Below are positions 5,691 to 52,604 of a stretch of 64,000 bases of DNA, piece after piece (the first letter of the stretch is position 1; every line of letters starts with the position of its first letter). The notes below the pieces were generated by a model. The model was not told where the DNA came from. It saw only the letters and a list, made by a program, of their open reading frames with translations, and searched no databases. Made by a program: the position numbers and the translations under genes. Location of the stretch: positions 7,616,501-7,680,500 of the forward strand of contig JAPNXP010000001.1 of NCBI GenBank assembly GCA_028753945.1, in the 5' to 3' direction. The stretch is from Hexactinellida sp. DTS-2022 (Eukaryota; Porifera; Hexactinellida).

Positions 5691-7099
5691 CTATAATCCT
5701 ACATGTTCAGGTTGTATCTGTAGTGTGAATTCTATTTCTCCTCTCTCTGTTCTGAATCTGTCCTTGAAGAGGAGAGCTTCAGGTATTGTAGCTATTTTGC
5801 ATTCATTGGGGTGTTCTTCCTTCAAATACAATCCTTGTCCTGTTTCTGGTTTGGGCTGTAGTTTCACAACAGGTCATTCATAGACAAGAGAATTGTTTGT
5901 GTTTACTCTATCTATTATTGTTAGCTTGAATCTTCCTTCAAAGGGCCATTTTGCTAGTGGAGACATCACTTTGTTAAATTCCATAGTTATAGACACAGGT
6001 ATGCCTTCTCGGTTTAGAATACCAAATATTCCTTCTCGGATTAGATTACCAAACATGAGTATCAGATTAATGAAGCGCCACGAAATTTTAAATCTAACAA
6101 AGCAACCTATTATACCCCAACTCATTCCATTAAAATTACTCTCCTTAATTATATATCGTAGCACGACAGGATATGTTAAACTCTCTATTATTGCTGATTG
6201 CTTCTCAACATCCTGTTTCAGATTCATAGCCTGTCTCTCCAACTCTTCCATACGATATGTGACAGTTCCAATTCTTCTGTCCGATTGTTCCAACTTATCA
6301 GTTAATCTGTCTACCTCTTTCAATAGTTTGGTGATTGTCTCCTCCGATTGTTCTATTTTAGCCACAGCAAATAGTGTAGTCATTGCCAGATGCTCTATTT
6401 CGTTTGTTTTGTTGTGTTCCTCCATTTGACACCTTAAAACCACTTCTTTGCATCCAAATCTCTCATGAGGACACCTCACCACTGTGTTGGGACAGTCTCT
6501 CTCGATGTGAGAATCCGTTTGTTTCCGTCTGAGGTTAGCTCCACAGCTGTTCGGACACAAAAGTGGGAATTCCAGACACGCTTCATAATGTCGCTTCAGG
6601 TCTCTGTACACTGTCTTGTTGAGACAATGCTCACAGCTGACTTCTCTGCTCAAACACTCTTTGCTGCAGTGGTTATTCAGTTCACACCTTTTGAGAATAA
6701 CTCCACAGGCATTCTCGCAGTTAACTACGAATTCCTTACACACATCTAGATGTGTCTCTACCTCAGAAAGGGTACCATTCCATTTGCAACCTCTTGTTGT
6801 TAGGGGACAGGTTACTTTGTGCTTAGGTATTTTCTGTCTTGCTTTCATCATTGGACTTGCTTTCATCATCGACCATTCGGTACACATTTCACAAACACAA
6901 ATCTGTTCCTCTCCTACCTGACAAGCGCTACGCATAACTCCTTTGCATTGAGTGCAGACATGGAATTATATTTCCATTTCATTCAATGAGTTAACTAACA
7001 AGTCTTGTTTTTATATCCTCCGAACTTCCCTCTACCGGTCTGTACCAGTGTCAGTTGTTCTTTCGAGTCTACTGAGTTGTATGTCTTGCCTGTTGCCAT
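5691..7099 (-). pseudogene. TRAF-like copy A (broken)
   Basis: Aligns by eye with the intact TRAF-like gene D over its whole length: N-terminal degenerate RING, a run of TRAF-type zinc fingers (CPLTTRGC, CEHCLNKTVYRDLKRHYEAC), coiled coil and C-terminal MATH-like region (WPFEGRFKLTIIDRVN). It is broken by a 2 base insertion near 7015, which shifts the frame after GRGKFGG, and by a TGA at 5874-5876, where gene D has TCA. About 60 further codons follow to a natural stop at 5691. TRAF proteins act as cytoplasmic adaptors in immune and stress signalling; this copy probably makes nothing functional. Start chosen by alignment to gene D. Confidence 0.8.
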
Positions 7100-7188
7100 T
7101 CAAAGAATCCTATCTGTGTTGTGTCTCTATTTATGCATATATGCTCAGGTAACCAGATACCTACATACACTGCAATAGAGCTGATATC

Positions 7189-7317
7189 GATATCTTCCCA
7201 CTTCGTCAATTCCCATTTCGTCAATTCTCATTTCGTCAATTCCCATTTTGTCAATTCCCATATCGTCAATTTCATATTTCGTCAATTCCCATTTCGTCAA
7301 CGTTGACTAAATGGGAA
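7189..7317. repeat. Left MULE terminal repeat made of iterated motif
   Basis: Seven or so consecutive copies of a 15 base motif, TTCGTCAATTCCCAT, with single-base variants. The innermost copy forms a palindrome centred on GTCAACGTTGAC. Confidence 0.88.
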
Positions 7318-7490
7318 CTTGTATACACATAACAGTTTATGTATAACGCTCAAAAACAATTGTTCAATGGTGAATAGTTACCTTTGTCACCTACTGGGGC
7401 TTCACCGATGGTTATTTTCTTATATAATCAGTGTACAAGCAATGAAAGTATATCTTGCTAATTGTTATTAAATATATTTACCTGGTTTGC

Positions 7491-8870
7491 ATGTTCGCCG
7501 AGACGACAAAGGGAAAACGTGCAGTAATCCATGAAGGATATTTGTATCAGAAAATTCGAGTTAATGGTCCTAAGTCATGGTGGAGATGTCAAGATAGGAG
7601 CTGTAATGGGAGGATAAGTATGGATGATGACATTGTGATTAACGTGTCAGGAATTCATCATCATCCTCCCAATATGGCGAAGATTACTGCACAGACTGTA
7701 ATAAGAAAAATGAGAAAAAGAGCTATTGAAGAAACTACATCAATCCCTAAAATATATGCTGAAGAAATAGCGACTGTTTCAGGGTATGAAGGAGTCGAAC
7801 ATTCAGAATTATCGATCAATTTACCACAGTTTCCCGCTATAAAATCGTCACTTTATCGAGGCTGGATGACAAAATATCCTTCACTACCACAAACTATTCA
7901 AGATATTACTTTTGGTGGTGATTGGACTCGTACTATTCAAGGGGAAGACATGCTTCTTGCAGACTCTGGTGAGAATGATCCTGAAAGAATTATAATGTTT
8001 GCAACAAAGAAAAATTTGGAAATATTATGTAACTCGGACTGTATTTATCTCGATGGAACTTTCAAATCATGTCCAGATTTATTTTATCAGCTCTTCACTC
8101 TCCATGCTTTCGTAGAGGGGAAACAATTCCCGTTTGTTTATGTTCTTCTACCTGGAAAGACAAGAATTTTATATGATCGAATGTTTCATATGCTGAAAGA
8201 AGCTTGTTGGAATAGCAACTTTCAAATGAATCCAAAGAGAATAATGTCAGACTTTGAAAGTTCTTTGATCCCATCAATTGCAATTCAATTTCCAGGATCC
8301 AAGCATAAAGGTTGTTTTTATCATTTTTCTCAAGCAATCTGGAGGAAAGTTCAAAGTCTAGGTTATCAAACCGAGTACTTGAACAATGATCAATTTAGGG
8401 TATTTATACGAGAGATGATGGCACTTGCTTTCATTCCTGAGTGGGAAGTAAGCATTGCGTTCCAGTCACTTTGTGCAGATACACCTGAGGGCCTCAATGT
8501 TGGCGAATTTATAGATTATATGGACAGGACGTGGATAAATGGAACGTTCAAACCTGATTTGTGGAACGTTTTCGACTCGAATGGACCTCGCACAAATAAC
8601 CATCTAGAGGGATGGCACAATAGATTGAACAGCTTTTTGGGAAGGCGGCATCCTAATATTTATCAATTGATGCAATTTATTACAAAAGAACAAGCTGTAA
8701 TTGATATTGAAATTATCCAACTACAAGCTGGTGCACTAGCTCCACCAAAGAAGAAGATGTACATTGCACTAGAATGTAGGATTGAAAATTTACGTCAGAA
8801 ATATACGCGCGGTGAATTGGATATCGATGAATATTTGCTCAGGATAGCAAATAATTTAGCAAATAGATAA
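7491..8870 (+). CDS. FLYWCH-MULE transposase, intact
   Basis: A 459-residue open frame from the first ATG; the open frame extends 12 codons upstream without an ATG. N-terminal FLYWCH-type zinc finger: hydrophobic core, then WWRC, CNGR and a final HHHPPN, the C-C-H-H pattern of that fold. The centre carries the MULE DDE transposase core: LDGTFKSC with the first Asp, MSDFESS with the second, HKGCFYHFSQA, and a C-terminal TNNHLEGWHNRL where the family places the conserved Glu. Cut-and-paste transposition of its own element in the nucleus is the expected role. It lies alone between the terminal repeats, has no frameshifts, and the stop is about 90 bases before the right repeat. Short for a MULE but complete in domains. 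Confidence 0.85.
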   Translation: MFAETTKGKRAVIHEGYLYQKIRVNGPKSWWRCQDRSCNGRISMDDDIVINVSGIHHHPPNMAKITAQTVIRKMRKRAIEETTSIPKIYAEEIATVSGYEGVEHSELSINLPQFPAIKSSLYRGWMTKYPSLPQTIQDITFGGDWTRTIQGEDMLLADSGENDPERIIMFATKKNLEILCNSDCIYLDGTFKSCPDLFYQLFTLHAFVEGKQFPFVYVLLPGKTRILYDRMFHMLKEACWNSNFQMNPKRIMSDFESSLIPSIAIQFPGSKHKGCFYHFSQAIWRKVQSLGYQTEYLNNDQFRVFIREMMALAFIPEWEVSIAFQSLCADTPEGLNVGEFIDYMDRTWINGTFKPDLWNVFDSNGPRTNNHLEGWHNRLNSFLGRRHPNIYQLMQFITKEQAVIDIEIIQLQAGALAPPKKKMYIALECRIENLRQKYTRGELDIDEYLLRIANNLANR

Positions 8871-8961
8871 TTGATATTTTGAGTGTTTTGTTGAGTTGTG
8901 TTAACGTGTTTTCTCAAGAATTATTAACCTATTTGAGTTTACTTGTAGTCTAGTAATTATG

Positions 8962-9089
8962 TCCCATTTCGTCAACGTTGACGAAGTGGGAATTGAAGAA
9001 ATAGCAAGTTGACAAAATGGGAATTGACGAAGTGAGAATTGGCGAAATGGGAATTGACGAAGTGCGAATTGACGAAGTGGGAATAATTC
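8962..9089. repeat. Right MULE terminal repeat made of iterated motif
   Basis: Inverted counterpart of the left end: repeated GACGAAGTGGGAATT units, beginning with a palindrome centred on GTCAACGTTGAC. Confidence 0.88.
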
Positions 9090-9097
9090 CTGATATC

Positions 9098-10150
9098 TTA
9101 TATATTAAATCACAATGATTTTTTGTTTTTTGTTTGTTTGTTTGTTTGTTCAGAATTGATTGAGGAACTGGTAAGAGCTACAGACTTGAAATTTGGCAGG
9201 GGAATAGGAAATACTGTATCTGGAAACAAGTTCTAATATCTAAGAAAAATATTCACATCTTCCCTCCCTATAGGTGACAAAACTTTTAGCCTATTAAATT
9301 CGAGGGTTTTCCAGTATGGATTAGCAGCTAGCATTCAATTCGTATAAAAGGATTTTAGTGTCTCTATCAATTGTTAAGTGTGCATTATAGAATGCCTATC
9401 TGAGACTGTGATTTAATTGGTCGAGAGGAAGTTCATTTATCCAATCAGTTATTGTGTTCCGTCTGTCTCCCATAGATTTATAACTTTCCATTGTGTCTAT
9501 TTGATTATTACCAATCAATACAATAACTTCTCCACAGTCCAAAGTTAGGGGTCCACAGAGTTGTACAGTTTGTTAGTGATATTAATTTTCTATTTGAAGT
9601 TAGTTTATTAATATATACACGGACATGCGTTATTATCTAGAAAACTGTCAGTTCTAACTAGCATAAATATTCAACAGTACAGGCGCTGATTAGTATTTCC
9701 CAATTTATTTTTTCTGTCCTTATACGTATATACCTATGGCTGGGGCCCACGGATATATAGACAGCTTAGGGGGCACAGCCCTACTCTGAAACAATAGCAT
9801 TACTGTTACGTGGGTCATTAGCGGTCACCTAAATATTTCCCATATGATTCCCGTAATATAATTAATTTGTGCTTTTGAATTTAAGTGATGCTCAAGGGGG
9901 TAAGTGTTACAACCCGTCCTTTTTATTACAAAATGACAAAAAGCGTGATGTAGGGAGGGGGTATATAATTTTTTCGTCATTTTTCGTCCATAATCGAAAG
10001 TTTTTATAGGAGCCTAGATTCAGTTTAAGTCTATTGGAGTATATAATTAAATACAACGGACATTTAATTTGAAAAGGCATGTGTTTTGAAATACAAGCGA
10101 GGGCCGCAGGCCCGAGTGCAAGTTGTAAGAACGCGCGTAGCGCGGACGAG
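9098..10150 (+). mobile_element. Helitron-like repeat, GC-hairpin tail (copy h1)
   Basis: Absent from the related flank at 15712, so an insertion. The head has TTTGTTTGTTCAGAATTGATT, matching other copies. The tail has GC hairpins with 3 base loops (GGGCC-GCA-GGCCC and GCGC-GTA-GCGC), as in all family members. It shares AATTCGAGGGTTTT and neighbouring sequence with copy h3 at 34034. No TIRs and no clear target duplication. Rolling-circle affiliation is inference. Confidence 0.55.
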
Positions 10151-10350
10151 CAGCTTGTAATATCTATGATTAAACTCCATTAAAGCGAGGCCTACCCTTG
10201 TGTCACTATTGATAATGCCCCCTGGGAATGTTTCTGTCCAATTTAACTCTGTTGAATATGCCTAGTTTTAGTATATGAGGTTAAGCCCTCTCCTCAATTC
10301 TAATATCTAATAGCCAGAGTGACCATGGGTCATAGGTCAGATGGGTTACC
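10151..10350. repeat. Duplicated TRAF flank
   Basis: Matches 15712-15900 (AAGCGAGGCCTACCCTTGTG, GTATATGAGGTTAAGCCC). This shows that TRAF-like copies A and B, with their upstream flanks, are one segmental duplication. 10351-10600 holds only short GACCCAT inverted motifs. Confidence 0.8.
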
Positions 10351-10599
10351 TAAATCGATGGGTCGTAAAGTTAACAAGCCATGACCCATTTGGAATTAAT
10401 TGTGTTATTCAGTTAATATGCGAATCTCTCATCGTCATCATCATCATCATCATGTTGATGTGCATAGAAATACTGTACATATTTGATTTGCAATAATTGC
10501 CTTTGTTGAGGTAGTTTACTCTGTTATTCTGTTATTATGTTACTTTACTGTGACAGTATAGTATTAGATATTTGAATTGTGTGATGGGTTATGGGTCAA

Positions 10600-10775
10600 T
10601 AGACTTCATCAATTCATCAATTAGTATAAATAGACTGTGCATAATAGAAATATTTTCAGAGGCTGCAATCTGATTGAGTGAAAATAAATTCATTTAACCA
10701 ATCAATCATTTGTCTATTCTATTGCATGTTTTTCTTTTAGTATTATTGGATTCGAGCTTCCTTATAGTGCAAATG
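10600..10775. repeat. Dispersed repeat shared with 34225-34400
   Basis: About 170 bases with high identity, including TAACCAATCAAT and TATTGCATGTTTTTCTTTTA. Noncoding. 10776-11035 shows nothing recognisable. Confidence 0.7.
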
Positions 10776-11037
10776 AAATTTATTGAGCTTTAATATGAGA
10801 ATTTTGATTTCCCAAACAAATTACATTGTATAGCATTTTTATTAAGACCTTGCATGCTTACAAATTTCTTTTCCCGAACTTTTCGGCGTGCAAATCTTTC
10901 TATGATGTCATAATAGGTGCCAGTCCTAAAGGAATATTCTAGAATAACAGTAGAGATTTTAAAGCCAATTTAATCGTAAGCTCCTAAAAAGTGGGGCTGC
11001 CAAGGCATACCCTACACCGATGGCCTTGACAGCAATT

Positions 11038-11120
11038 GTGGCCCCAACTTGTGAGGCCCCAACTTGTGAGGCCCAAACTTGTGAGGCCCAAACTTGTGAG
11101 GCCCAAACTTGTGAGGCCCT
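11038..11120. repeat. 15 bp tandem repeat
   Basis: Five to six copies of GAGGCCCAAACTTGT, the first two with GCCCCAA. Confidence 0.9.
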
Positions 11121-11420
11121 CAAGCTATAGCTTAGTTAGCTTATAGGGTAATCCGATCCTGGGTCACCAATGTTGACACATGGCCTACTCTGCTCCCATT
11201 GTGTCACTATTGGTAATGCTATTGTGACGAGTATCACCTAGAGCCTTCAGGAGTAGTGTCCTTGGGAAAGGCACTAAGTGGAAGTACGGGACACTACATG
11301 AGTAGTCTGTAGATAGTCCGGCAGTACGACTGGTAACCATAGTCTAGGACTATGGATACATGGGAAGTACGGCACTCGCAGGAGCCACAGGCTGGAGCGA
11401 GAGGTGCGGCAGTACGCATG

Positions 11421-11470
11421 GTGGTCGAGGGTTACCCTCCTGATGAGTCCCTGCAATGGGACGAAACCAC
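11421..11470 (+). ncRNA. Type III hammerhead ribozyme 1
   Basis: Order 5' to 3': GTGGTC (stem III strand and GUC cleavage triplet), stem-loop I GAGGG-TTA-CCCTC, core CTGATGA, stem-loop II GTCCC-TGCAAT-GGGAC, core GAAA, stem III closing with CCAC. All invariant core bases are present. Predicted cleavage is after C at 11426. Stem III is 5 bp, so a dimeric or co-transcriptional fold may matter for activity. Confidence 0.93.
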
Positions 11471-11906
11471 ACACATAACATCCCTATGGGATGGGGTCAG
11501 CTAGAGCGTCTAGTCTTCATACTAGTACGTGGCCTCATCTCATAACATAATAACTACCGACGTTATTACGCCGGAGTTATTATGTTATGCCGGCTATGCT
11601 GGACTGCGCGTGCATGGTCAAACGGCGGTCTGCATAGTTGGGCCAGCAGGGGATCCCGAGCTAGAGGGAAGACCTGTCTGGTTGTGTGGAAGGCTAAAGG
11701 GAAGGTGATGTGACGAGTATCACCTAGAGCCTTCAGGAGTAGTGTCCTTGGGAAAGGCACTAAGTGGAAGTACGGGACACTACATGAGTAGTCTGTAGAT
11801 AGTCCGGCAGTACGACTGGTAACCATAGTCTAGGACTATGGATACATGGGAAGTACGGCACTCGCAGGAGCCACAGGCTGGAGCGAGAGGTGCGACAGTA
11901 CGCATG

Positions 11907-11956
11907 GTGGTCGAGGGTTACCCTCCTGATGAGTCCCTGCAATGGGACGAAACCAC
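11907..11956 (+). ncRNA. Type III hammerhead ribozyme 2
   Basis: Same 50 nt as ribozyme 1, 486 bases downstream. Predicted cleavage after 11912. Confidence 0.93.
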
Positions 11957-12145
11957 ACACATAACATCCCTATGGGATGGGGTCAGCTAGAGCGTCTAGT
12001 CTTCATACTAGTACGTGGCCTCATCTCATAACATAATAACTACCGACGTTATTACGCCGGAGTTATTATGTTATGAGATGAGGCCACGTACTAGTATGAA
12101 GACTAGACGCTCTAGCTGACCCCATCCCATAGGGATGTTATGTGT

Positions 12146-12195
12146 GTGGTTTCGTCCCATTGCAGGGACTCATCAGGAGGGTAACCCTCGACCAC
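12146..12195 (-). ncRNA. Type III hammerhead ribozyme 3 (inverted)
   Basis: Exact mirror of ribozyme 2 across the palindrome centre; all core bases retained on the minus strand. Predicted cleavage between 12190 and 12189. Confidence 0.93.
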
Positions 12196-12672
12196 CATGC
12201 GTACTGTCGCACCTCTCGCTCCAGCCTGTGGCTCCTGCGAGTGCCGTACTTCCCATGTATCCATAGTCCTAGACTATGGTTACCAGTCGTACTGCCGGAC
12301 TATCTACAGACTACTCATGTAGTGTCCCGTACTTCCACTTAGTGCCTTTCCCAAGGACACTACTCCTGAAGGCTCTAGGTGATACTCGTCACATCACCTT
12401 CCCTTTAGCCTTCCACACAACCAGACAGGTCTTCCCTCTAGCTCGGGATCCCCTGCTGGCCCAACTATGCAGACCGCCGTTTGACCATGCACGCGCAGTC
12501 CAGCATAGCCGGCATAACATAATAACTCCGGCGTAATAACGTCGGTAGTTATTATGTTATGAGATGAGGCCACGTACTAGTATGAAGACTTATTATGTTA
12601 TGAGATGAGGCCACGTACTAGTATGAAGACTAGACGCTCTAGCTGACCCCATCCCATAGGGATGTTATGTGT

Positions 12673-12722
12673 GTGGTTTCGTCCCATTGCAGGGACTCAT
12701 CAGGAGGGTAACCCTCGACCAC
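12673..12722 (-). ncRNA. Type III hammerhead ribozyme 4 (inverted)
   Basis: Identical core and stems on the minus strand, 527 bases from ribozyme 3 because of the 41 bp duplication. Confidence 0.93.
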
Positions 12723-13158
12723 CATGCGTACTGCCGCACCTCTCGCTCCAGCCTGTGGCTCCTGCGAGTGCCGTACTTCCCATGTATCCATAGTCCTAGA
12801 CTATGGTTACCAGTCGTACTGCCGGACTATCTACAGACTACTCATGTAGTGTCCCGTACTTCCACTTAGTGCCTTTCCCAAGGACACTACTCCTGAAGGC
12901 TCTAGGTGATACTCGTCACATCACCTTCCCTTTAGCCTTCCACACAACCAGACAGGTCTTCCCTCTAGCTCGGGATCCCCTGCTGGCCCAACTATGCAGA
13001 CCGCCGTTTGACCATGCACGCGCAGTCCAGCATAGCCGGCATAACATAATAACTCCGGCGTAATAACGTCGGTAGTTATTATGTTATGAGATGAGGCCAC
13101 GTACTAGTATGAAGACTAGACGCTCTAGCTGACCCCATCCCATAGGGATGTTATGTGT

Positions 13159-13208
13159 GTGGTTTCGTCCCATTGCAGGGACTCATCAGGAGGGTAACCC
13201 TCGACCAC
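13159..13208 (-). ncRNA. Type III hammerhead ribozyme 5 (inverted)
   Basis: Identical to the others, 486 bases from ribozyme 4, within the extra right-hand monomer. Confidence 0.93.
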
Positions 13209-13504
13209 CATGCGTACTGCCGCACCTCTCGCTCCAGCCTGTGGCTCCTGCGAGTGCCGTACTTCCCATGTATCCATAGTCCTAGACTATGGTTACCAGT
13301 CGTACTGCCGGACTATCTACAGACTACTCATGTAGTGTCCCGTACTTCCACTTAGTGCCTTTCCCAAGGACACTACTCCTGAAGGCTCTAGGTGATACTC
13401 GTCACACTATTCACATCCCATTCTGCTATTTATGCTCTATTGTTGTATTTTGGTTCTTCATATTGTACTATAGTAACTTGGAAATAGCGTATTTGCTCGA
13501 ATAC

Positions 13505-13705
13505 TACCCCTGTTAAATTGTCTATTATGGGTGATTGCGTCTCCACTTTATTGAGATTATTACTTTTTATCTTTCTTTCATCCAACACTCCAAACTTTCT
13601 GTAGTTATCACAGACTGTCTCTCCAAGTCTTCCATACGTTGTGCGAGTGTTTCCATTCTTCTGTCAGATTGTTCCAACTATCAGTTAATCTGTTTACCTC
13701 TTTCT
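13505..13705 (-). pseudogene. TRAF-like coiled-coil fragment
   Basis: Matches the coiled-coil coding part of gene D (complement of TCTTCCATACGTTGTGCGAG, TTCTGTCAGATTGTTCCAAC) but has frameshifts and no zinc fingers. It joins directly at 13700-13800 to the sequence found upstream of copy C near 22710-22800 (TATACTCGTGCA...CAAGTCGG), so it is a rearranged chimera. Confidence 0.65.
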
Positions 13706-14791
13706 TGATAACCTCTTTTATACTCGTGCAGACAAGTCGGATTATGGTCACAAACTGGATATAGTTAAAAGTTCGGAATTAGGATCGAAAAAATGCGATT
13801 TATTAAAACTAACAGCTGTTGCAAGCAAAATGACACTTTTACGATTGAAAATAAAACTCTCTAAACGAAATTGAAACTATGAATAAAACACTAACTACAT
13901 TTTATCTTAATCCCCAATACTGTAAAGTTTAACTGAGAATACTTTAACTCTATAAAATACTAAACTAAGATCAGACCGTCACACTAACTAGGGGATATAT
14001 ATAATATTAATAAATTGTTAGTCAGTTAACCTTAGACATTTTCATTCTTACTACAAGTCCTGATTGTGATTGGAACTATAATCTTATATGTTCAGCTTCT
14101 TGCACCTGTAGTGTGAATTCTAAATCTCCTCTCTCTGTTCTGAATCTGTCCTGGAGGAGGAGAGCTACAGGTATTGTAGCTATTTCGAATCGATTGGGGT
14201 GTTGTCGTAGTTTCACAGCAAGTGATTCATAAATAAGAGAATTGTTTGTGTTTACTCTGTCTATTATTTTTAGCTTGAATCTTCCTTCAAAAGACCAATT
14301 TGCTTGTAGAGACATGCTAACTGTGTTGATATCTGGATTTGAATTACCAAATATGAGTATCAAATTTATACTGCGCCACGTAATTTTAAATTTGCCAAAG
14401 TTACCGAGAATATTACCGTATAGACTGCTCATTCGATTATAATCACTCTGCTTTATTCTATCTCGTATCACGACTGGATATGTTAAACTGTCTATTATTG
14501 GTGATTGCTTCTTTACTTCCAAGTCTTTGATACGTTGTGCGAGTCTTCCAATTCTTCTGTCAGATAGTTCCAACTTATCAGTTAATCTGTTTACCTCTTT
14601 CAATAGTTTAGTATTTGTCTCCTCCGATTGTTCTATTTTAGCCACAGCAAATAGTGTAGTCATTGCAAAGATGCTTTATTTCCTTTGTTTTGTTGTGTTC
14701 CTCCATTTCACACCTTTTGACCACTTCTTTGCATCCAAATCTCTCATGAGGACACCTCACTACTGTGTTGGGACAGTCTGTCTCGATGTGC

Positions 14792-14886
14792 CCCGGGGTC
14801 CGTGGGTCTAGGGGCCCCCGTAAAAATTCCTAAACAAAGTTATTAGTTTAAGAATGTAAGTATATTGTTACCGCCAAATGCTGACT
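14792..14886. mobile_element. Unclassified ~95 bp insertion in copy B
   Basis: Begins CCCCGGGGTCCGTGGGTCTA and interrupts sequence continuous in copies A and D (CGATGTG/TGAATCCG). No clear inverted ends; at most GTG is duplicated. Confidence 0.5.
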
Positions 14887-15293
14887 GTGAATCCGTTTGT
14901 TTCCGTCTGAGGTTAGCTCCACAGCTGTTCGGACACAAAAGTGGGAATTCCAGACACGCTTCGTAATGTCGCTTCAGGTCTCTGTACACTGTCTTGTTGA
15001 GACAATGCTCACAGCTGACTTCTCTGCTCAAACACTCTTTGCTGCAGTGGTTATCCAGTTCACACCTTTTGAGAATAACGCCACAGTCATTCTCGCAGTT
15101 AACTACGAATTCCTGACAGACATCTAGATGTGTCTCTACCTCAAATAAAGTGGAATTCCATTGGCACCCTCTTGTTGCTAGGGGACAGTTTGCTTTGAGC
15201 TCAGGTATTTTCTGTCTTGCTTTTAACATTGGTTGAATTGATTCCTTATTCTCTACACAATTCTCGCAATTAGGAATCTGTTTATCTCCTACC

Positions 15294-15448
15294 CAGGGTT
15301 TCATCTAGGCGTACGCGACGCGCCTCTAGGCGCGCGAAAATCGAGAGTTGCTCCCATAGACGTAATACAAATTGAGTATTTTAGGCGCGTGTGAGCGAGC
15401 TCAAACTAAATCTAGGCGCGTCGAAAAATTTTCCTGGAAGAAAGCCTG
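15294..15448. mobile_element. hAT MITE in copy B with exact empty site in D
   Basis: Ends CAGGGTTTCATCTAGG and (reverse) CAGGCTTTCTTCCAGG. Exact 8 bp duplication CTCCTACC on both sides; gene D has a single CTCCTACC at the matching place (about 25017). Confidence 0.9.
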
Positions 15449-15711
15449 CTCCTACCAGACAAGCGCTACGCATAACTCCTTTGCATTGAGTGCAGATATT
15501 TCCATTTCATTCAATGTGTTAACTAACAAGTCTTGTTTGTATCCTCCGAACTTCCCACTACCGGTTTGTACCAGTGTCAGTTGTTCTTTCGAGTCTACTG
15601 AGTTGTATGTCTTGCCTGTTGCCATTCAAAGCATCCTATCTGTGTTGTGTCTCTATTTATGCATATATGCTCAGGTAACCAGATACCTACATACACTGCA
15701 ATAGAGATGAT

Positions 15712-15900
15712 ATAATTTCTATGATTATACTCCATTAGAGCGAGGCCTACCCTTGTGTCACTATTGATAATGCCCCATGGCCATGAGAATTATTTCTGTC
15801 CAATTTAACTTCGTTAAATATGCCTAGTTTGTAGTATATGAGGTTAAGCCCCCCCCCCTTCAATTCTCATAACCAGAGTGACCATGGGTCAGATGAGTAT
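15712..15900. repeat. Duplicated TRAF flank (partner of 10151-10350)
   Basis: Upstream flank of copy B without the MULE and Helitron-like insertions seen at copy A. 15901-16038 shows nothing recognisable. Confidence 0.8.
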
Positions 15901-16038
15901 CGGCTCTGAGACCCTTGACCCTTGAACCCATTGACCAAATTATTGTACACGGATTTACGAAACATATAAAATCTTTGTTGTTTTTCATAGAAAATCATAT
16001 AAATGGATGAACATTTTGGCTCAAAGATCTAGCATGAG

Positions 16039-16354
16039 CAGGGCCGCTTGAGGGTGTGCAGGGGGGACAGTTGCCAATAAGCCTGTCACTGGAAATTGAT
16101 TCTGGACCAAAATTCCAGGGAAAATGGTCCCAGGACCAGTTTTTTCGGGGACAAATTTCCCATTGACATGCCCCTCTGGAACCTTTCCCAGACCCAAATG
16201 TTCATTTTACACGATTTCCTTATCTCTATATAATTAAAGTTTGGGATAACTATTTGTTCATGAAAAATGAAGTACAACCTTGGTGGTGGAGACCCTTTGG
16301 TGGTGGAGGCCCCGGGGCAGTTGCCCCGGTTGCCCATGGGTTAATCCGGCCCTG
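16039..16354. mobile_element. hAT-like non-autonomous element
   Basis: Ends CAGGGCCG and TTAATCCGGCCCTG, typical of hAT MITEs. No clean 8 bp duplication. Another isolated hAT end (GAGAACCACTG) sits at 16469-16479. Confidence 0.55.
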
Positions 16355-16723
16355 ACTTTAGTATGATATGCTGTACGTCGTTTTCAGGGATTTATTTAAA
16401 TATCGATCATTATGGTGGTACGCGGAGACTATAATATTTGATGAAGTGGTACGCGCTGTGAGAAGTTTGAGAACCACTGACCTAAATGACAAAAATGGAC
16501 TAATGTACTTGGAGGGGAAAGGGCATTACAGATAAATGCTTATACTGAAGAATTTGTCAACTGGGAATTGATTAATAATTATTGCGTGTAGTAATGATAT
16601 TGAAAAATAATAATTCAGATATTTTAGCGAATATATCCAAATGCGTAGCAGTTAAGTGAATCATCGGGAAGGGGACGAGTCAAAGGGCTCGTTACATTTA
16701 TATTACATTCCCCCTAAGGGAGA

Positions 16724-16824
16724 AAAATCTAAAATTACAGCTGTGCAGACAGCATTTTCTTGTGGAGGCACTATTATCCACTGAACCAATATGCAGTCGG
16801 CACAGCTGTAATTTAGATTTTTCC
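16724..16824. repeat. Diverged solo hairpin of the array family
   Basis: AATCTAAAATTACAGCTGTG and its complement flank a short loop; same outline as hairpins H1-H9 but outside any array. 16480-16723 and 16825-17076 show nothing recognisable. Confidence 0.65.
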
Positions 16825-17076
16825 ACTTATTTTGTTAACAACAACTAAATTTATTTCACTTTTCATTTTATGACAAAGATTTACATAAATTTTATGGCTG
16901 TTAATAGTGACTACTTCGTTACATGTTTGTTAGTGTTTTGCATAGTTATGAATAAAAAATCTAAAATTTGAATGGGCTAAATCCTAATCTCTATAATTTT
17001 CACAAATTCCTACCATAACACTACGTAATATATTGTATAATATGGTATAATAATGTAGCTATCTGCTATGAGGTTG

Positions 17077-17497
17077 TTAAGTGGTTTTATCTTTGACTTC
17101 CTTCTTGAAGGCCTCAAATTCAGTTTTTAGAGTTTCATGGTATTTTCTTAGTGTATCCAATTGTTCTTTGAGGCTTTTATGTTCCTCCACACGGACAGTC
17201 TGATTGGATACATATTCTTTCGTTGCATTCAAGTGTGCGATAATGTTGTTGTTGTTGTGGTCAGAGAGTTCACACCTTTTCATTTCCGCACTACAACCAA
17301 ACAGTTTGTATCCACAGCTAATAATGGTGTTAGGGCAATCTGTGTTAATGTGATTATGTAGCTCTTTCCGCTTGAAAGTGCCTCCACATTCGTTCTGACA
17401 CGCGAGAGGGAATTCCGGACAGTCCTCATAGTGCTTGGTTAGGTCCTTGAACAGAACGGCGCCGCTACAGTGCTCGCAGGTAAAGTCGCGGTGTGTG
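17077..17497 (-). pseudogene. TRAF-like copy C, 3' part
   Basis: Continues the frame of the 5' part at 22214-22663. Encodes TRAF zinc fingers (CEHCSGAVLFKDLTKHYEDC, CPNTIISC) and a coiled coil of about 45 residues ending EAFKKEVKDKTT and a stop. There is no MATH-like domain, so this subfamily (C, E, F) may have been zinc-finger plus coiled coil only. Split from its 5' part by the Ginger1-like element. Confidence 0.75.
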
Positions 17498-17574
17498 TGT
17501 CACGAAAAAATTGGTCCGGGCCAAAAATGGTCCGGGACCAATTTTGGCCTGCCATAAATGGTCCTAGCTTGCTA

Positions 17575-17800
17575 AAATAGGTCCGGTGTAGCAGCCCAGA
17601 TTAACCCCCACCCAGTTTAATCCCTGGGCTAAACTAGGCTAGCCCAGATTAACCCCCGGGGTTAAACTGGGCTAGCCTAGTTTATACCCCAGAGGTTAAA
17701 CTAAAGCTAGCCAAGATTATACCCCCAGAGCCTATTTTAACCCCCGGGGGTTAAAATAAGCTAGCCTATTTTAACGGCCCTAGTTTATCCCCTGTGTAAA
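17575..17800. repeat. Ginger left subterminal repeats
   Basis: Runs of GGCTAGCCCAGATTAACCCC and variants in both orientations, each centred on GGCTAGCC. The counterpart lies at 21425-21660. Confidence 0.85.
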
Positions 17801-17906
17801 TAATTACCAATGAAATTATAGTGATTAATAATTCTTCTAAATCAGCTGCTAATACAATAATGAATCTAAGGTACTAATGAAAAGATAGGAAAAATTGTCT
17901 ATGCTT

Positions 17907-18296
17907 CTAGAATAATTGTATATTGATGACTACGTTGAAGTGTTCAGCTAAATTTTCCAGATACAATGCAGTTTCTGTATTTTTTGTCAATGTAAAAGAT
18001 GCGGGATATGTAAGCCATTCCATAGAATCCCCACTCTTTGCATAAACAACGATATCATGTTGAATAAGATTAGCTGTGGCCAGTATTTCTGCCTTGGTTG
18101 CCCAAACACCACTGGAGTCAATGGCACTTTCGCTGACATAATTGGAAACCGTTTGAGAAAGATACTTTCTTAGTGTTTCACTCAAACTACCACTCATGTG
18201 ATGGACGACTTTATTACGAATTATAATATGGCTATCTTCTGAACCTGTTAGGATGTAGCTTATTGATCGGAAATAGCAATCACCATCACCTTTAGT
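17907..18296 (-). pseudogene. OTU-family cysteine protease domain of the Ginger gene
   Basis: About 130 codons, open. The N-terminal motif KGDGDCYFRSIS holds the catalytic Asp/Cys pair, then the LTGSED segment, WATKAEILATANL, and a C-terminal LAEHFNVV where OTU proteases place the catalytic His. These proteins remove ubiquitin. The upstream codons are cut at about 18300 by a nested repeat, and the frame appears to resume at 19514 with the integrase C-terminus. So integrase and OTU were one protein before the insertion. The domain itself has no lesion. Confidence 0.75.
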
Positions 18297-18300
18297 TCTG

Positions 18301-19512
18301 TACGAGCCCTTCGGTCTCGGTCACTTTGCGACAGATCGGTGCTACGCACCTCAAGTTAACGGCCACTGTGCGGCCTTACTCCTCACATTTTCTACCATAG
18401 AAATGGTAGAAAGGGACGTTATGATTTAGAATTTTCATAAATTTGTTTACCTATTTGTGTAAACAACAACAACAACAAATACTCATATTATAATTTTATA
18501 AATGCGAAATTCGTGTTCAGCACACTTGTTTACTTATAATACCCATTGAAAGCTAACTTCTAGGTTGATTTTGAATTTTCATTAATTTGTTTAGCTATTT
18601 TGTGTAAACAACAACAACAAATATTCATATTATAAATTTATAAACGCGATATTCGTGTTCAGCATACTTGTTTACCTATAATACTAGTTGAAAGCTAACT
18701 TCTAGGTTGATTCTGAATTTTCATTAATTTGTTTAGCTATTTTGTGTAAACAACAACAACAAATATTCATATTATAAATTTTTAACCGCGAAAATCGTGT
18801 TCAGCATACTTGTTTACCTATAATACCCGTTGAAAGCTAACTTCTAGGTTGATTTTGAATTTTCATTAATTTGTTTACCTATTTTGTGTAAACAACAACA
18901 ACAAATATTCATATTATAAAATTTTAACCGCGAAAATCGTGTTCAGCATACTTGTTTACGTATAATACCCGTTGAAAGCTAACTTCTAGGTTGATTTTGA
19001 ATTTTAATTAATTTGTTTACCTATTTTGTGTAAACAACAACAACAAATATTAATATGAGAAATTTATAAACGCGAAATTCGTGTTCAGCATACTTGTTTA
19101 CCTATTATACCCGTTGAAAGCTAACTTCTAGGTTGATTTTGAATTTTCATTAATTTGTTTACCTATTTTGTGTAAACAACAACAACAAATATTCATATTA
19201 TAAATTTTAACCGCGAAAATCGTGTTCAGCATACTTGTTTACGTATAATACCCGTTGAAAGCTAACTTCAAGGTTGATTTTGAATTTTCATTAATTTGTT
19301 TACCTATTTGTGTAAACAACAACAACAAATATTAATATGAGAAATTTATAAACGCGAAATTCGTGTTCAGCATACTTGTTTACCTATTATAACATTTGGA
19401 ACTTAGTCTCTATCTCAATAATAAATGCGGTTTCTAGTCCCCCATCACTTTAATACAATCCGGACAAACAAACAAACACACACACACACACACAAACACA
19501 CAACAATCCGAG
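18301..19512 (-). mobile_element. Helitron-like repeat with minisatellite (copy h2)
   Basis: The tail is at low coordinates: hairpins GTCGC-AAA-GCGAC type and GGTGC-GTA-GCACC, ending CGAGCCCTTCGGTCTCGG. Middle: about seven tandem units of ~115 bp (CGTGTTCAGCATACTTGTTT, GTTGAAAGCTAACTTCTAGG, AACAACAACAAATATTCATA). Head: AATACAATCCGGACAAAC, then (CA)n and CAACAATC. Inserted in the Ginger gene between integrase and OTU. Closest relative at 51532-52604. Confidence 0.75.
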
Positions 19513-19513
19513 C

Positions 19514-21265
19514 GGGTTTAGATAGGTAGCCAGATTTTCCAAAGTATTGGGTGTGGCATATATTCAAGTTGAAAACTTTGGCAACCTTTTTTCGAGATTC
19601 AGCGGAAATTGGAGAAAACAGTCTGTTTGGGTTGAATTGTTTATCTTCAATTAAAACTAGCTCATCCGTACACTCAAGTTTCTTAATCTTAGAATGTGAT
19701 ATTGAAGTTCTTCTCTTTTTCTTTGATTTACCATCTTCAGCTTTATTATTTGAATCATAAACCTTCAAATTTGCAATATTATATATATTTCTTAGTTTCT
19801 TTCCTGTGTTGATATTCTCTAAGATTGCACGACCTTTATCTAGCAACTCAATGATTTTATAAGGACCTATCCAGCGTGGTTCCATTTTCGATCCCATTCG
19901 ATGTATTCGCTTCCTGTTTTTTATGTACACAGTCGCGCCAGGTGATAACACTACTATTAGAATGACGGTTATCAAAGTTTCGTTTTTGGTGTTTCTGTGC
20001 GTTTGTGATATTAAGATCAATTTTGGCGTTGATAGATTCACGCATCACGTCAAGCACCTGTAAAACTTTGGAGTTCACCTGCTCAATTGGTTTTGGAGGC
20101 AAATCAATTGGTAGCTTCGCACTACGACAATACATCGCTTGAAATGGAGTACATTTCGTAGAAGCATGAATGCTTGTGTGATAAGCAAATAGTATTCCTG
20201 GGATATAAATATCCCAATCATCACCTCTTTCATTTACCAATTTCGCCAATGCAGATTTCAGGGTACGGTTATCTCTTTCCCGTTGTCCATTTGTTTCAGG
20301 ATGATAAGCAGAAGAAATTCGATGCTCAGTCTGCAGAATGTCAAGAAGATAATCAATAACTCCGTTCACAAATTCTCTTCCTTGATCACTTATCAGTGTG
20401 TCCATACATCCCAATCTGCAAACTACTATGTATAGAAAATCAGCTACAGATTTAGAAGTTTTGTCAGGAATGGCAGTAGCTTCTGACCACTTGGAAAAGT
20501 GGTCTGAAATAGCTACAATATATTTGTTGCCACGTATAGTCTCCTGTAAGGGCCCAATGAGATCAATTCCTACAAGACTCCATACTTGAGATGGTACGCG
20601 TATCGAAGACCGCGGAGGTCGGTCCATTTTAAGTTTTGGGTTGACTTCAAAACACCTGATGCATTGTTTACAATATATTTCAATTTCTTGCTTCATACCT
20701 AAAAAATACATTTGGGAATCACATGAAACTTTGTGAAATTTGTCTGTTACAAATTACAATTCCGAATCTTGGGAAATTTGACAACACCTATTGCAAAATA
20801 AACCCAGCTGTATTAACAACGGTCTAACAATTGATTGTAGGTAAGTTAGCATCGCCTAATTAAGGAATTTACGTAAGCTTTAATATGCCAACAGTTGTAT
20901 TGCGCTACCCATTAGGTGCGAAAGTTTGCTCCCGGATTGAATGTTAAATTAAGTATTAGTAAATATTTACCTTTCCAGTAGAATCTTGATGCGATCTTCT
21001 GGTAGGTTTTGTCACGACCAAAATGACCACCGGTTACAGGGTTATCATGACACATTTTGAGTACTGCATCCACTCCACTTATACGTAACACTTGCTTTTC
21101 AGCATGCATCAGAATCCCATCCTTCAAAGTATATGGCTTAACTGTTTGTCGGAATGATTTTTTTCGCATTGACTCGTTTTTCAGGTGGAAGTTTATAGAT
21201 CTCTTCTGGATATTTGTTTTCGTTAGATATAAAAAAATGCAATATTTGATTGTAGAGTTGATCAT
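19514..21265 (-). pseudogene. Ginger integrase (H2C2, DDE core, GPY/F), spliced, frameshifted
   Basis: Exon 1 starts at about 21265 and ends FYWKG. It carries the H and C ligands of the zinc domain (DNPVTGGHFGRDKTYQKI). An intron at 20699-20970 has a GTAAAT donor and TTTTTTAG acceptor; splicing joins YWKG to MKQEIEIYCKQCIRC and restores the H2C2 finger. The core follows: LVGIDLIGP (first Asp), ISDQGREF (second), and AYHPETNGQRERDNRTLK (Glu). A GPY/F module (RWIGPYKIIELLDKG) comes after a frameshift near 19945. Known function is strand transfer of its own element. Similar to Ty3 integrases, but the element lacks all retroelement parts. Confidence 0.8.
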
Positions 21266-21424
21266 CCATCAAAACAATGTAGTAAATATATTTGGTAGAT
21301 CAAACAAGTAATTATGCTCTTCTATATTTATAGTAGTTGAAACAGCAATATAGACATCGTAAGTGTCGCCGCCACACGCATTGCTTGTATTCTATAAACA
21401 AATAACATCATAATTTGCTGACCA

Positions 21425-21660
21425 TTAACTCCGGGGTATAGTCTGGGCTAGCCCAGACTATACCTGGGGTTAATTTAGGCTAGTCCAGATTAACCCCCAA
21501 AAGGGGGTTAATCTGGGCTAAAGGGTATAATCTGGGCTAGCCTAAATTAACCCCGGGGCTTAATATGGGCTAGCCCAGTTTATATGTGGGGGTTAATCTA
21601 GGCTAGCCCAGATTATCCCTGGGGTTGAACTGGGTGGGGAGGTTAATCTAGGCTGTTACA
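21425..21660. repeat. Ginger right subterminal repeats
   Basis: Inverted counterpart of 17575-17800. 21661-22000 is plain AT-rich; 22000-22209 is the TGGTCCGGCCGGACCA-rich terminal repeat. Confidence 0.85.
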
Positions 21661-22213
21661 CCGGCCTAAACTTTTGCTAGATCGCACTAAAGTTGCTATA
21701 ACAAACCTCCCACTAGTGCGAAATTGTATAGGACGATCAATTATTAAATTGAAAATGTATCTTTTTCTAATTGTCTACTATGGATCAGGGGAAAAAGGAG
21801 TCCCTTGTAAGTATGTATGAAGGCATGAATAATAGTGAAAAGAATTGGTTTTGTAATTGTGATATATGGAGACATGGAGTTACGGTGTAAAGAATCAACT
21901 TTGTAATTGTGTATTATTGACTATTGTGAAAACATTTGCATCTCTATGTATTCTTGTATTGATGAATGATAAAAAGCTCTATGATTATTGTCTTGGAATG
22001 GCTGCCAAAAACTGGTCCGGCGGGGACCACCTTTGGCCAATGGGGACCGCCTTTGGCGACCAAAACTGGTCCGGCCGGACCATTTTTGGCGACCAAAGCT
22101 AGTCCGACCGGACCATTTATGGCCGGCCAAAATTGGTCCCGGACCAGTTTTGGCAGTCAAAAGTGGTTCGGCCGGACCACTTTTTACCCGGACCAATTTT
22201 GGCGTGACATGTG

Positions 22214-22663
22214 CAGTCGATCTGAGGTGTTGTTCCAGTTCCAATCTCTGTAGGATCATCTGGCAACTGTTCGGGCAGCTCACAACAAAGTATTCGCATT
22301 CATCCAAATGCGTAGTCACACTGCCAAGCAAATCTTTCCAAATACAACCTCGGGTATACATACAGTGGACACTTTCCTGACACGATTGGTAGAAATTCTC
22401 TGGCCGCTTTGCTAGGTGTTTGTGTCACACCCTCTGGAACACAAGTGGCACATAAGATATTCTGATCTTCGCCTACACTACACGCGTCTCTACTCAACCC
22501 GTTACAACCTGTGCACTGAAATGACCTCGTTTCGAAAGGGCTTAAGCTATCATGCAACAACTCCTGTTTGTAACCACCGAATTTCCCATCTTTAATCTCG
22601 ACGAGCATCAGTAGATCCTTGTTGCTACTGTGTTGAAGGATTTGCCTTCTCCAGATTCTGCTA
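22214..22663 (-). pseudogene. TRAF-like copy C, 5' part
   Basis: Encodes KFGGYKQELLHDS, the degenerate RING (CTGCNGLSRDACSVGEDQ, CATC) and the first zinc finger. The start codon is ATA where copies E and F have ATG. One base is lost near 22626, and a 4 base GTAT duplication near 22360 shifts the frame. Copy E shares the GTAT duplication, so C and E descend from an already broken parent. Confidence 0.75.
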
Positions 22664-22859
22664 TTGTATGTGGATAGAAATAGTTTCATATTAGCTAACT
22701 GCTCTCTTTTATACTCGTGCATACAAGTCGGGTTATGGCCACAAACTAAATATAGTTTGCAATAGTTCGGAATTCGGATCGAAAAAATGCGATTTAACTC
22801 CGGTAACATCTACTGACACCAAACTCAAAGTTTATTAGTTACTTTAGGGAAGTTCTTTC

Positions 22860-23290
22860 CTACTCAGATCTCCTGTTATTAGGAATTTCCGGATAAGACG
22901 AACAAACAGTTCCACAAAATCAGGTCTCTACAATGGCTATTAAACGTGTATTACTCCGTTTAATACGAACTCCGGCTAAAGCGAAAATTTTTACCTCGTT
23001 AATAGGAACACGGATAAGGCGAAATACAGTAGATGCCGGGTATAAGAACATTCTACTGGAAAAACGGTTGACATATGCCCTATATCTTTTATGTCGGTTA
23101 TAAGAACTTATATGCAGTTCCCGACGATGTTCTTATAACCGACATCCACTGTATTGTTTAGGGAGTACAGAGTTTAATTCGCCTAGCCTATACAAAGCAT
23201 GCAAGCAACTCCGGTTAATCCGAATTCGGATAATACGAACAAATTTCGACGGTCCCCTGGTGTTCCTATTAACGAGAGTCTTCTATCTAT
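22860..23290. mobile_element. Decayed pogo-like element (second copy)
   Basis: Parallels 5060-5560: ATTTCCGGATAA, CAAACAGTTCCACAAAATCAG and GTTAATAGGAACACGGATAA are shared. Hosts a better preserved MITE at 23027-23151. 23291-23700 is AT-rich with nothing recognisable. Confidence 0.5.
23027..23151. mobile_element. 125 bp TA-flanked MITE
   Basis: Ends CAGTAGATGCCGGGTATAAG and TTATAACCGACATCCACTG, flanked by TA on both sides. Confidence 0.8.
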
Positions 23291-23762
23291 ATCTGGATAT
23301 TAATTCTAACTTATAAGGCCTTTTGTGAAGGAATTTCCTCTATAAATATAAGGCTATTTATAGAGTTATTTGAATATTAGAATTTAGAACCTCACAAAAC
23401 ATTACTAACCAATAAGAAACTAAATTAAATAATCAAATCCTAATACTATTTGATAGTAATAGAAGAGTTAGATGCTGTGAAAAGGGTCCAAAGTTAGTTA
23501 ACTGCGTTTATATAATTCCTATTGGATTAAATGCCATTTTTCCCAGCTGTTATATTATACGAATTACGTATATTTTACATTTTACATTTTCCCTTTTCCA
23601 TATTTCCCAATACTACTACATGTAAAGTTAAACTGAGAATAATTTAACACTAGAAAATAAATTAACTAAGATGATACACTAGCTAGGGTTAATAATATTA
23701 AGAAAATAGTTAGTCAGCTAAACCTTAGGCATTTTCGTTCTTGCTCCGAGTCTTTATTGTGA

Positions 23763-25202: not shown

Positions 25203-25476
25203 TGCGAAGTATTATTTATATATAGTAAATATTTATTTACGTGTTTACTTGTACACACACTTATGCTTCAGTAAGATCTACCTATTTACTTGCACTAGGA
25301 ATTCACATTCATATATTCACTATTCACGTTGGAAACTTTGATTTTGAGTTTCATTTATTTGTTTGTAAATAACAACTAAATTTATTTTCACGCTTCATTT
25401 TATGAAATTATTTACTTGAATTTTCTGATTGTTAATAGTGACTACTCCGTTACATGTTTGTTAGTGTTTTGCATAG

Positions 25477-51531: not shown

Positions 51532-52604
51532 CGAGCCCTTCGGTCTCGGTCGCTTTGCGACAAATCGGTGCTACGCACCTCAAGTTAACGGCCGCTATAC
51601 GGCCTTACTCCTCACACTTTCTACCATGGAAATGGTAGAAAGGGACGTTATGATTTTGAATTTTCATTAATTTGTTTACCTATCTGTGTAAACAACAACA
51701 ACAACAACAAATACTCATATTAGAATTTTATAAATGCGAAAATCGTGTTCAGCATACTTGTTTACCTATAATACCCGTTGAAAGCTAACTTCTAGGTTGA
51801 TTTTGAATTTTCATTAATTTGTTTACTTATTTGTGTAAACAACAACAACAAATATTCATATTATAAATTTATAAATGCGAAATTCGTGTTCGGCATACTT
51901 GTTTACCTATAATACCCGTTGGAAGCTAACTTCTAGGTTGATTTTGAATTTTAATTAATTTGTTTACCTATTTTGTGTAAACAACAACAACAAATATTAA
52001 TATTATAAATTTATAAATGCGAAATTCGTGTTCAGCATACTTGTTTACCTATAATACCCGTTGAAAGCTAACTTCTAGGTTGATTTTGAATTTCATTAAT
52101 TTGTTTACCTATTTTGTGTAAACAACAACAACAAATATTCATATTATAAATTTATAAATGCGAAATTCGTGTTCAGCATACTTGTTTACCTATAATACCC
52201 GTTGAAAGCTAACTTCTAGGTTGAGTTTGAATTTCATTAATTTGTTTACCTATTTTGTGTAAACAACAACAACAAATATTCATATGAGAAATTTATAAAC
52301 GCGAAATTCGTGTCCAGCATACTTGTTTACCTATTATAACATTTGGAAGCTAACTTCTAGGTTGATTTTAAATTTTCATTTATTTGTTTACCTATTTTGT
52401 GTAAACAACAACAACAAATATTCATATGAGAAATTTATAAACGCGAAATTCGTGTTCAGCATACTTGTTTACCTATTCTAACATTTGAAAGTTAATTTAT
52501 ATCTCATATATTAATGCGGTTTCTATCCCCCCGTCACTTTAATACAATCCGGACAAACAAACACACAAACACACACACACACACACACACACACAACAAT
52601 CGAG
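51532..52604 (-). mobile_element. Helitron-like repeat with minisatellite (copy h10)
   Basis: Same layout as h2: hairpin tail at the left, about seven ~115 bp minisatellite units, (CA)n and head at the right (CAACAATCGAG). It sits in AT-rich DNA without a clear target duplication. Confidence 0.75.

Follow-up and report, generated by a model that had tools for sequence, protein, structure and literature searches.

Type III hammerhead ribozymes in LTR-like repeats of a glass sponge: probable animal LTR retrozymes with a candidate hairpin primer

The genome of the glass sponge Hexactinellida sp. DTS-2022 harbours hundreds of dispersed type III hammerhead ribozymes set in LTR-like repeats, and the insertion described here is one inverted copy among them. 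It lies in a stretch of 64,000 nucleotides, called the window below, to which all coordinates without a contig label refer. We consider it very probable that these copies are animal LTR retrozymes that prime themselves and use a Ty3-like element as helper. A bolder version of this reading is put forward tentatively, at slightly less than an even chance: that they are the first animal LTR retrozymes and at the same time circular-RNA parasites with their own primer, a junction hairpin standing in for the tRNA and the helper being itself self-primed. In that case, hairpin-primed copying of circular RNA would have produced many of the single-LTR and palindromic insertions directly, and LTR recombination would not be their source.

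Results

An inverted multi-LTR insertion in the window

The window insertion measures about 2.18 kb and has a 4-bp duplication on both sides. Its 486-bp unit is composed of a 325-bp LTR-like repeat with TG...CA ends, within which the ribozyme lies, and a 161-bp non-coding interior that closes with a purine tract. Its features, in order of position, are the following.

11219..11222, no strand: target-site duplication, left, CTAT (same 4-mer at 13407-13410)
11223..11547, plus: LTR copy 1, 325 bp, TGTGACGAG...CTCATAACA, ribozyme 1 inside; ends taken from dispersed single-LTR copies
11419..11472, plus: type III hammerhead 1, predicted cut after 11426 (RF00008, 57 bits)
11541..11589, plus: hairpin over the LTR/interior junction, CATAACATAATAACT...AGTTATTATGTTATG, proposed self-primer (predicted fold -24.8 kcal/mol, z -8.1)
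11548..11708, plus: interior copy 1, 161 bp, non-coding (from sequence)
11696..11705, plus: purine tract AAAGGGAAGG immediately upstream of LTR 2 (box common to a Ty3-like element)
11709..12033, plus: LTR copy 2, 1 difference in 325 from copy 1
11905..11958, plus: type III hammerhead 2, predicted cut after 11912 (RF00008, 57 bits)
12034..12068, no strand: palindrome centre, the hairpin running directly into a reverse-complement LTR
12069..12393, minus: LTR copy 3, inverted
12144..12197, minus: type III hammerhead 3 (RF00008, 57 bits)
12394..12595, minus: interior copy 2, 161 bp, lengthened at the junction by a 41-bp repeat (TRF row 12549-12631)
12596..12920, minus: LTR copy 4, inverted
12671..12724, minus: type III hammerhead 4 (RF00008, 57 bits)
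12921..13081, minus: interior copy 3, same sequence as copy 1
13082..13406, minus: LTR copy 5, inverted
13157..13210, minus: type III hammerhead 5 (RF00008, 57 bits)
13407..13410, no strand: target-site duplication, right, CTAT

An earlier note on this DNA had described a head-to-tail array of 486-bp monomers at 11224-13405, each with a perfect type III hammerhead. The ribozymes bear scrutiny: all five match the Rfam model RF00008 (Hammerhead_3) above its gathering cut-off of 48.5 bits, each with E 5.1e-10, and the invariant bases of the catalytic core are present. The extent is off by no more than one base at either end, and the same cleavage site, after 11426, is predicted here. The array itself does not hold, as two hammerheads lie on the plus strand and three on the minus strand, with the palindrome at 12034-12068. 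The 486-bp spacing applies to the plus pair and to one minus pair, the other being 527 bp apart with the 41-bp repeat; likewise, stems I and II have the 5 bp ascribed to all three stems, and stem III has 4. The UUA of loop I, thought to be unusual, is also in the Rfam type III consensus. As the note had it, no protein seems to be encoded: there is no evident coding gene, and the longest internal ATG ORF (86 aa, 11566-11826, minus) is antisense to the ribozyme strand, recurs in the inverted copies and is probably due to chance.

The LTRs, five in all, show no more than 1 difference in 325 nt, and interiors 1 and 3 are identical, which makes the insertion a young one; this single young insertion carries all parts of the element. 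A TG end and an identical 4-mer on either flank indicate that it entered as a single piece. We infer that it is an inverted multimer, of the kind that the snap-back of an extended hairpin would yield. An assembly artefact is not favoured, because the limits of the palindrome coincide exactly with LTR ends and are flanked by a target duplication, and palindromes elsewhere have their own duplications. A 15-bp repeat, GGCCCAAACTTGTGA, occupies 11040-11119 in about five copies, 100 bp upstream of the insertion.

Ribozyme copies and covariation across the genome

The earlier note proposed looking for further copies, and they are numerous. In the 112.4-Mb assembly (18 contigs), a 27-nt pattern of the ribozyme core occurs 363 times with at most one mismatch, including 274 exact occurrences (134 on the plus and 140 on the minus strand). 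The mirror control gave 0 for both, and 274 against 0 in 112.4 Mb excludes chance. When RF00008 was run on the genome, 68 of 12,319 first-look candidates were scored, 64 of which lie above the cut-off. The type I model, RF00163, had 0 matches in the genome, in a search that matched nothing in the control genomes either.

The stems of the ribozyme covary. In 32 ribozymes selected by hand from 65 distinct ones, 94.4% of stem cells are paired and 21 are altered on both sides, against a mean of 4.4 in shuffled sets (0 of 500 shuffles reach this number). Counted by pairs, 5 of 14 are altered on both sides, which 33 of 500 shuffles equal. Compensated changes are confined to stems II and III; stem I is nearly invariant, with no both-sided change among the 32. 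Only one polarity of the 486-bp unit has a hammerhead, and the 486-nt unit RNA is predicted to fold much more strongly than its shuffles (z -6.9).

Ends and duplications of LTR type

Both ends could be recognised in 52 ribozyme copies, of which we set aside 21 that are multi-LTR or have an interior. This left 31 single-LTR copies, L053-L057 being seemingly segmental copies of one another. A TG start with an exact 4-bp duplication is found in 15 of the 31; the flanks agree at 3 of 4 positions in 7 more and do not match in 9. As a control, the left flank of each of the 52 copies was paired with the right flank of another, and 29 of 2,652 such mispairings (1.1%) were identical.

Multi-LTR loci were chosen for two ribozymes or two unit matches lying close together, and in 11 of the 14 with both ends the duplication is exact. 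These comprise all five direct copies (L059, L069, L073, L075 and L078; the duplication is 5 bp in L073) and six of nine inverted ones (the window, L025, L047, L072, L077 and L081). The three inverted exceptions are L046, where 3 of 4 positions agree, and L012 and L074, with no agreement. Besides the window, L073 and L078 have type III hammerheads within direct repeats around a non-coding interior. The purine tract that precedes the 3' LTR in the window is found in L078 likewise; in L077 it is not clear. Outside the window, 10 places at least 97% identical to the unit stop at unit position 322-328 (one aligns only over 82-322), among the best 40 of 384 candidates that were scored in the window-unit DNA search; this is the LTR end, and they are thus devoid of interior.

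Three loci have peculiarities of their own. At about 1579-2263 of L012, an inverted insertion unites two retrozyme subfamilies, 93% and 73% identical to the window unit, and looks as if it came from template switching between two RNAs. In L082 (ribozyme on the plus strand), a piece of the retrozyme LTR is repeated every ~44 bp at ~755-1000, an internal tandem expansion. L069 holds two LTRs of a third family head to tail, with hardly any interior and the duplication CTCC.

A hairpin over the LTR/interior junction

In the window the LTR is followed by TAATAACTACC, without the TGG start of a tRNA primer site. Instead, the final 7 nt of the LTR and the following 8 nt pair perfectly with a stretch downstream, and the resulting RNA is predicted to form the stable hairpin listed above. 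Judged by TAATAACTACC, the hairpin and the missing TGG, the 5' LTR is not followed by a tRNA-Met primer site; for this reason we hold that the element works in the manner of plant LTR retrozymes but do not class it among them. No tRNA genes were detected in the window or in 60 ribozyme loci (L009-L068).

A script found an LTR/interior hairpin in 12 of 81 scanned sources, the window counted; many others are single LTRs without interior, and imperfect cases visible by eye, such as L046, L067 and L074, were passed over. In a random control, perfect hairpins of at least 14 bp with the same geometry occurred at 159 of 200,000 positions of L009-L068, under a rule stricter than and different from that of the scan and with retrozymes left unmasked. 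Five copies have a hairpin that continues into the interior (the window, L012, L045, L077 and L078); relative to the window, 6 pair positions of their arms are compensated and 1 is broken.

The 3' arm of the hairpin leads directly into a reverse-complement LTR at the window centre and in L025, L047, L071, L080 and L081, which matches what primer extension of the arm would write. Nine inverted copies have both ends. For four of them (the window, L025, L047 and L081) the script locates the turn at the hairpin; in L074 this was judged by eye, and in L012, L046, L072 and L077 the turn is elsewhere or more complex. The hairpin could have a role other than priming, and the end of the proposed primer is not settled, the pairing including the last 7 nt of the LTR.

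A Ty3-like candidate helper

A search for the purine tract joined to the LTR start gave nine places with at most one mismatch, six of them exact, and one in the mirror control. Of the exact ones, the window holds three and L078 one, and two belong to another LTR family (C1:4573162 and C6:3749763, the latter 2.2 kb past an RVT_1 match); the other three of the nine are C1:12881214, C6:2826725 and C15:3248381, outside the loci read. At C6:3745102-3749961 we find a Ty3-like element of ~4.86 kb, with LTRs of 187 bp (1 difference) and the duplication ATGT. Its reverse transcriptase has Ty3 RT (4ol8, E 1.8e-52) as best match among solved structures, and a piece of it had no match in GTDB contigs. By eye, an integrase-like reading frame ends just before the purine tract; its end piece of 153 aa matched no Pfam family. 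The element shares with the window 18 nt, AAAGGGAAGGTGATGTGA, which are the purine-tract/LTR-start box, and the overlap between helper and retrozyme is limited to short terminal boxes. The helper LTR has 7 matches in the genome.

This candidate helper likewise has no TGG start after its LTR. Two nucleotides downstream of the LTR, 14 nt, AAGTATTTAGTTAT, are complementary to ATAACTAAATACTT within its own LTR (L085); 2 of 20,000 shuffles reach 13 nt, and the fold has a z of -3.7. The same stretch in L086 has, by eye, one G-U and one mismatch. The helper thus looks self-primed, on the evidence of a single full copy read in pieces.

Other candidates were rejected. A helper whose whole LTRs resemble those of the retrozymes is absent from the candidates scored in the family-A (best 40 of 384) and family-B (best 40 of 223) searches. 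The RVT_1 match at C4:4425686, 3.6 kb from a ribozyme, has a single family-B LTR listed nearby. The family-B primer site (see below) gave 7 matches, none of which adjoins, by eye, any of the 150 listed RVT_1 matches. Four of them, at three places, fall at family-B copies (C1:9873718, C6:4551193 with C6:4551397, and C18:1606057); the other three are C12:4312365, C12:4313311 and C1:17446170, outside the loci read.

A second family and the case for tRNA priming

A second family, B, has GGGG/CCCC as stem III and an LTR that reads TGTAGTATC...TTACA, with a TTGG... stretch right after it and a 5-bp duplication in L073. In L070 and L076 the LTR is directly followed by TTGGTGCATTGGCCGGGAA, which resembles the complement of a tRNA-Gly 3' end. 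Given this primer-site-like stretch, hairpin priming is not universal in this genome.

Family B thus lends some weight to the view that we are dealing with ordinary LTR retrozymes that, like those of plants, take a tRNA as primer, the hairpin being incidental or serving only to stabilise the RNA; the ribozyme, the LTRs, the purine tract and the 4-bp duplication all match the plant elements. We consider it unlikely for the window family, because its LTR continues with TAATAACTACC, the hairpin is maintained through changes on both sides and the helper too lacks a TGG and pairs with its own LTR.

Other features of the window

A MULE transposase with a FLYWCH finger (7446-8867) lies in a region (7195-9084) flanked by opposed arrays of a 15-bp repeat at 7195-7300 and 8978-9084, like inverted termini built from a minisatellite. 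One 142-bp satellite forms two arrays, 18422-19391 and 51651-52476, of which one adjoins an integrase fragment and the other a hAT-like fragment. TRAF-zinc-finger-like reading frames cluster at 5874-25211, in blocks 94-96% alike; Pfam zf-TRAF was matched at 23763-25211, the sole part of the cluster checked with Pfam. Palindrome-rich repeats of 33 and 50 bp with GGTCCGG are present at 22052-22185, 59284-59419 and 60390-60611. The window PHAF1 is 84% identical to that of the glass sponge Oopsacas minuta (46% for Lingula and Mytilus, which follow among named matches), and three unnamed proteins match at 95, 81 and 79%.

Discussion

We propose the following pathway for the self-primed LTR retrozymes of this sponge. 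An RNA spanning two adjacent LTRs would be cut by the hammerhead in each, and the resulting 486-nt RNA, consisting of the LTR end, the interior and the LTR start, would be ligated into a circle. A Ty3/gypsy-like reverse transcriptase may then recognise the common purine tract and LTR ends, minus-strand DNA being started from the RNA hairpin just past the LTR, so that no tRNA would be needed. Finally, the helper integrase would insert the product with a 4-bp target duplication. We infer all of these steps, from transcription, cleavage and circularisation to hairpin priming and mobilisation in trans, from the genomic copies. A self-primed helper would leave the retrozyme no use for a tRNA site; as the circle, moreover, has no 5' end that could serve as primer, a local hairpin would fit.

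Three explanations of another kind have to be weighed against this pathway. The copies might be DNA versions of an infectious, viroid-like RNA that a reverse transcriptase happened to capture. Such an RNA would be small, non-coding, strongly structured and equipped with a ribozyme, as the unit is, and type III hammerheads are reported for HDV-like circular RNAs of animals in the available text of PMC7761336. We nevertheless hold this to be very improbable: the hammerhead is in a single polarity of the unit, the copies have the ends, purine tract and target duplications typical of LTR elements, and hundreds of genomic places carry the core. IMG/VR gave 0 matches to one exact 26-nt ribozyme pattern, and a search of a plasmid collection gave no match.

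Still a little less credible is a short inverted-repeat DNA transposon of MITE type that has a hammerhead by chance. The inverted ends of the window copy, TGTGACGAG...CTCGTCACA, could suggest one, as could the frequency of inverted copies among multi-LTR loci and the short imperfect inverted ends of single LTRs (TGTGACGAG against CTCATAACA, 7 of 9). Yet single copies have 4-bp duplications without a long inverted repeat, and a DNA transposon is rejected on account of the direct LTR-interior-LTR copies with a purine tract and of the purine-tract/LTR-start box that the Ty3-like element has as well. The least probable reading of all, a non-LTR retrozyme or satellite DNA such as is known from metazoans, would suit an animal repeat a few hundred bp long that carries a hammerhead, but the hammerheads are of type III and not type I (RF00163 having 0 matches in a search that was equally blank in the control genomes), LTRs, a purine tract and 4-bp duplications are found, and the listed copies are dispersed.

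The literature covered by our search, outside which lie preprints and most subscription journals, revealed neither an animal LTR retrozyme nor a glass-sponge hammerhead; a word search of the available text of two glass-sponge genome papers returned no mention of ribozymes.

Relation to known systems

The following comparisons draw on the accessible parts of the cited papers. There, LTR retrozymes of plants are described as having a type III hammerhead within their LTRs, 4-bp duplications, tRNA-Met sites and purine tracts, with solo LTRs and Ty3-gypsy-like ends (PMC4918200, PMC7761336). The sponge element resembles those of Cervera 2016 (PMC4918200) in its type III hammerhead in LTRs of some 300-400 bp, its non-coding interior, its purine tract and its 4-bp duplication, in the many LTR copies without interior (stated there for Jatropha) and in terminal boxes common to a Ty3-gypsy element, here 18 nt. 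It differs from them in its animal host, in an interior of 161 bp instead of 300-600 bp, in the junction hairpin where the plant elements have a tRNA-Met primer site, and in its inverted copies, several of which turn at the hairpin.

Retrozymes of animals are described as carrying type I ribozymes, without LTR, primer site or purine tract (PMC7229834, PMC7761336), in agreement with what the earlier note says of the hammerhead type. Its retrozyme reading stands as to the kind of element; the layout is of the LTR type, as in plants, and not tandem non-LTR. With the metazoan non-LTR retrozymes of Cervera and de la Pena 2020 (PMC7229834) the sponge element shares an animal host, the absence of coding sequence, a hammerhead and a unit of a few hundred bp. 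Those elements are, unlike the window copy, type I tandem repeats lacking an LTR, primer site and purine tract, and their target duplications are larger.

In animals, the accessible text of PMC7761336 places type III hammerheads in HDV-like RNAs and in insects, and refers both to type III elements of bacteria or insects and to work in preparation. The toad and termite HDV-like circular RNAs also combine a type III hammerhead with an animal source; they have hammerheads in both polarities, whereas the sponge hammerhead is in one polarity, inside genomic LTR-like repeats. Among small elements, TRIMs are non-autonomous LTR elements, one of which is reported in bivalves (PMC6934838); they too are gene-less, and the abstract names no ribozyme.

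As to the primer, fission-yeast Tf1 and its kin prime from their own RNA (PMC10085805). The presumed primer site of the helper pairs with its own LTR, as in these Tf1/sushi elements; the helper departs from them in a reverse transcriptase nearest to Ty3 among solved structures and in an integrase end without a Pfam domain. A cis hairpin primer, if true, would answer how an endless circular RNA can be reverse transcribed when the helper is self-primed.

The published division, as far as the accessible text goes, is between plant LTR retrozymes with type III hammerheads and animal non-LTR retrozymes with type I. Hundreds of type III hammerheads in LTR-like repeats of a glass sponge break this division, and the LTR retrozyme lifestyle is thereby placed on an early animal branch.
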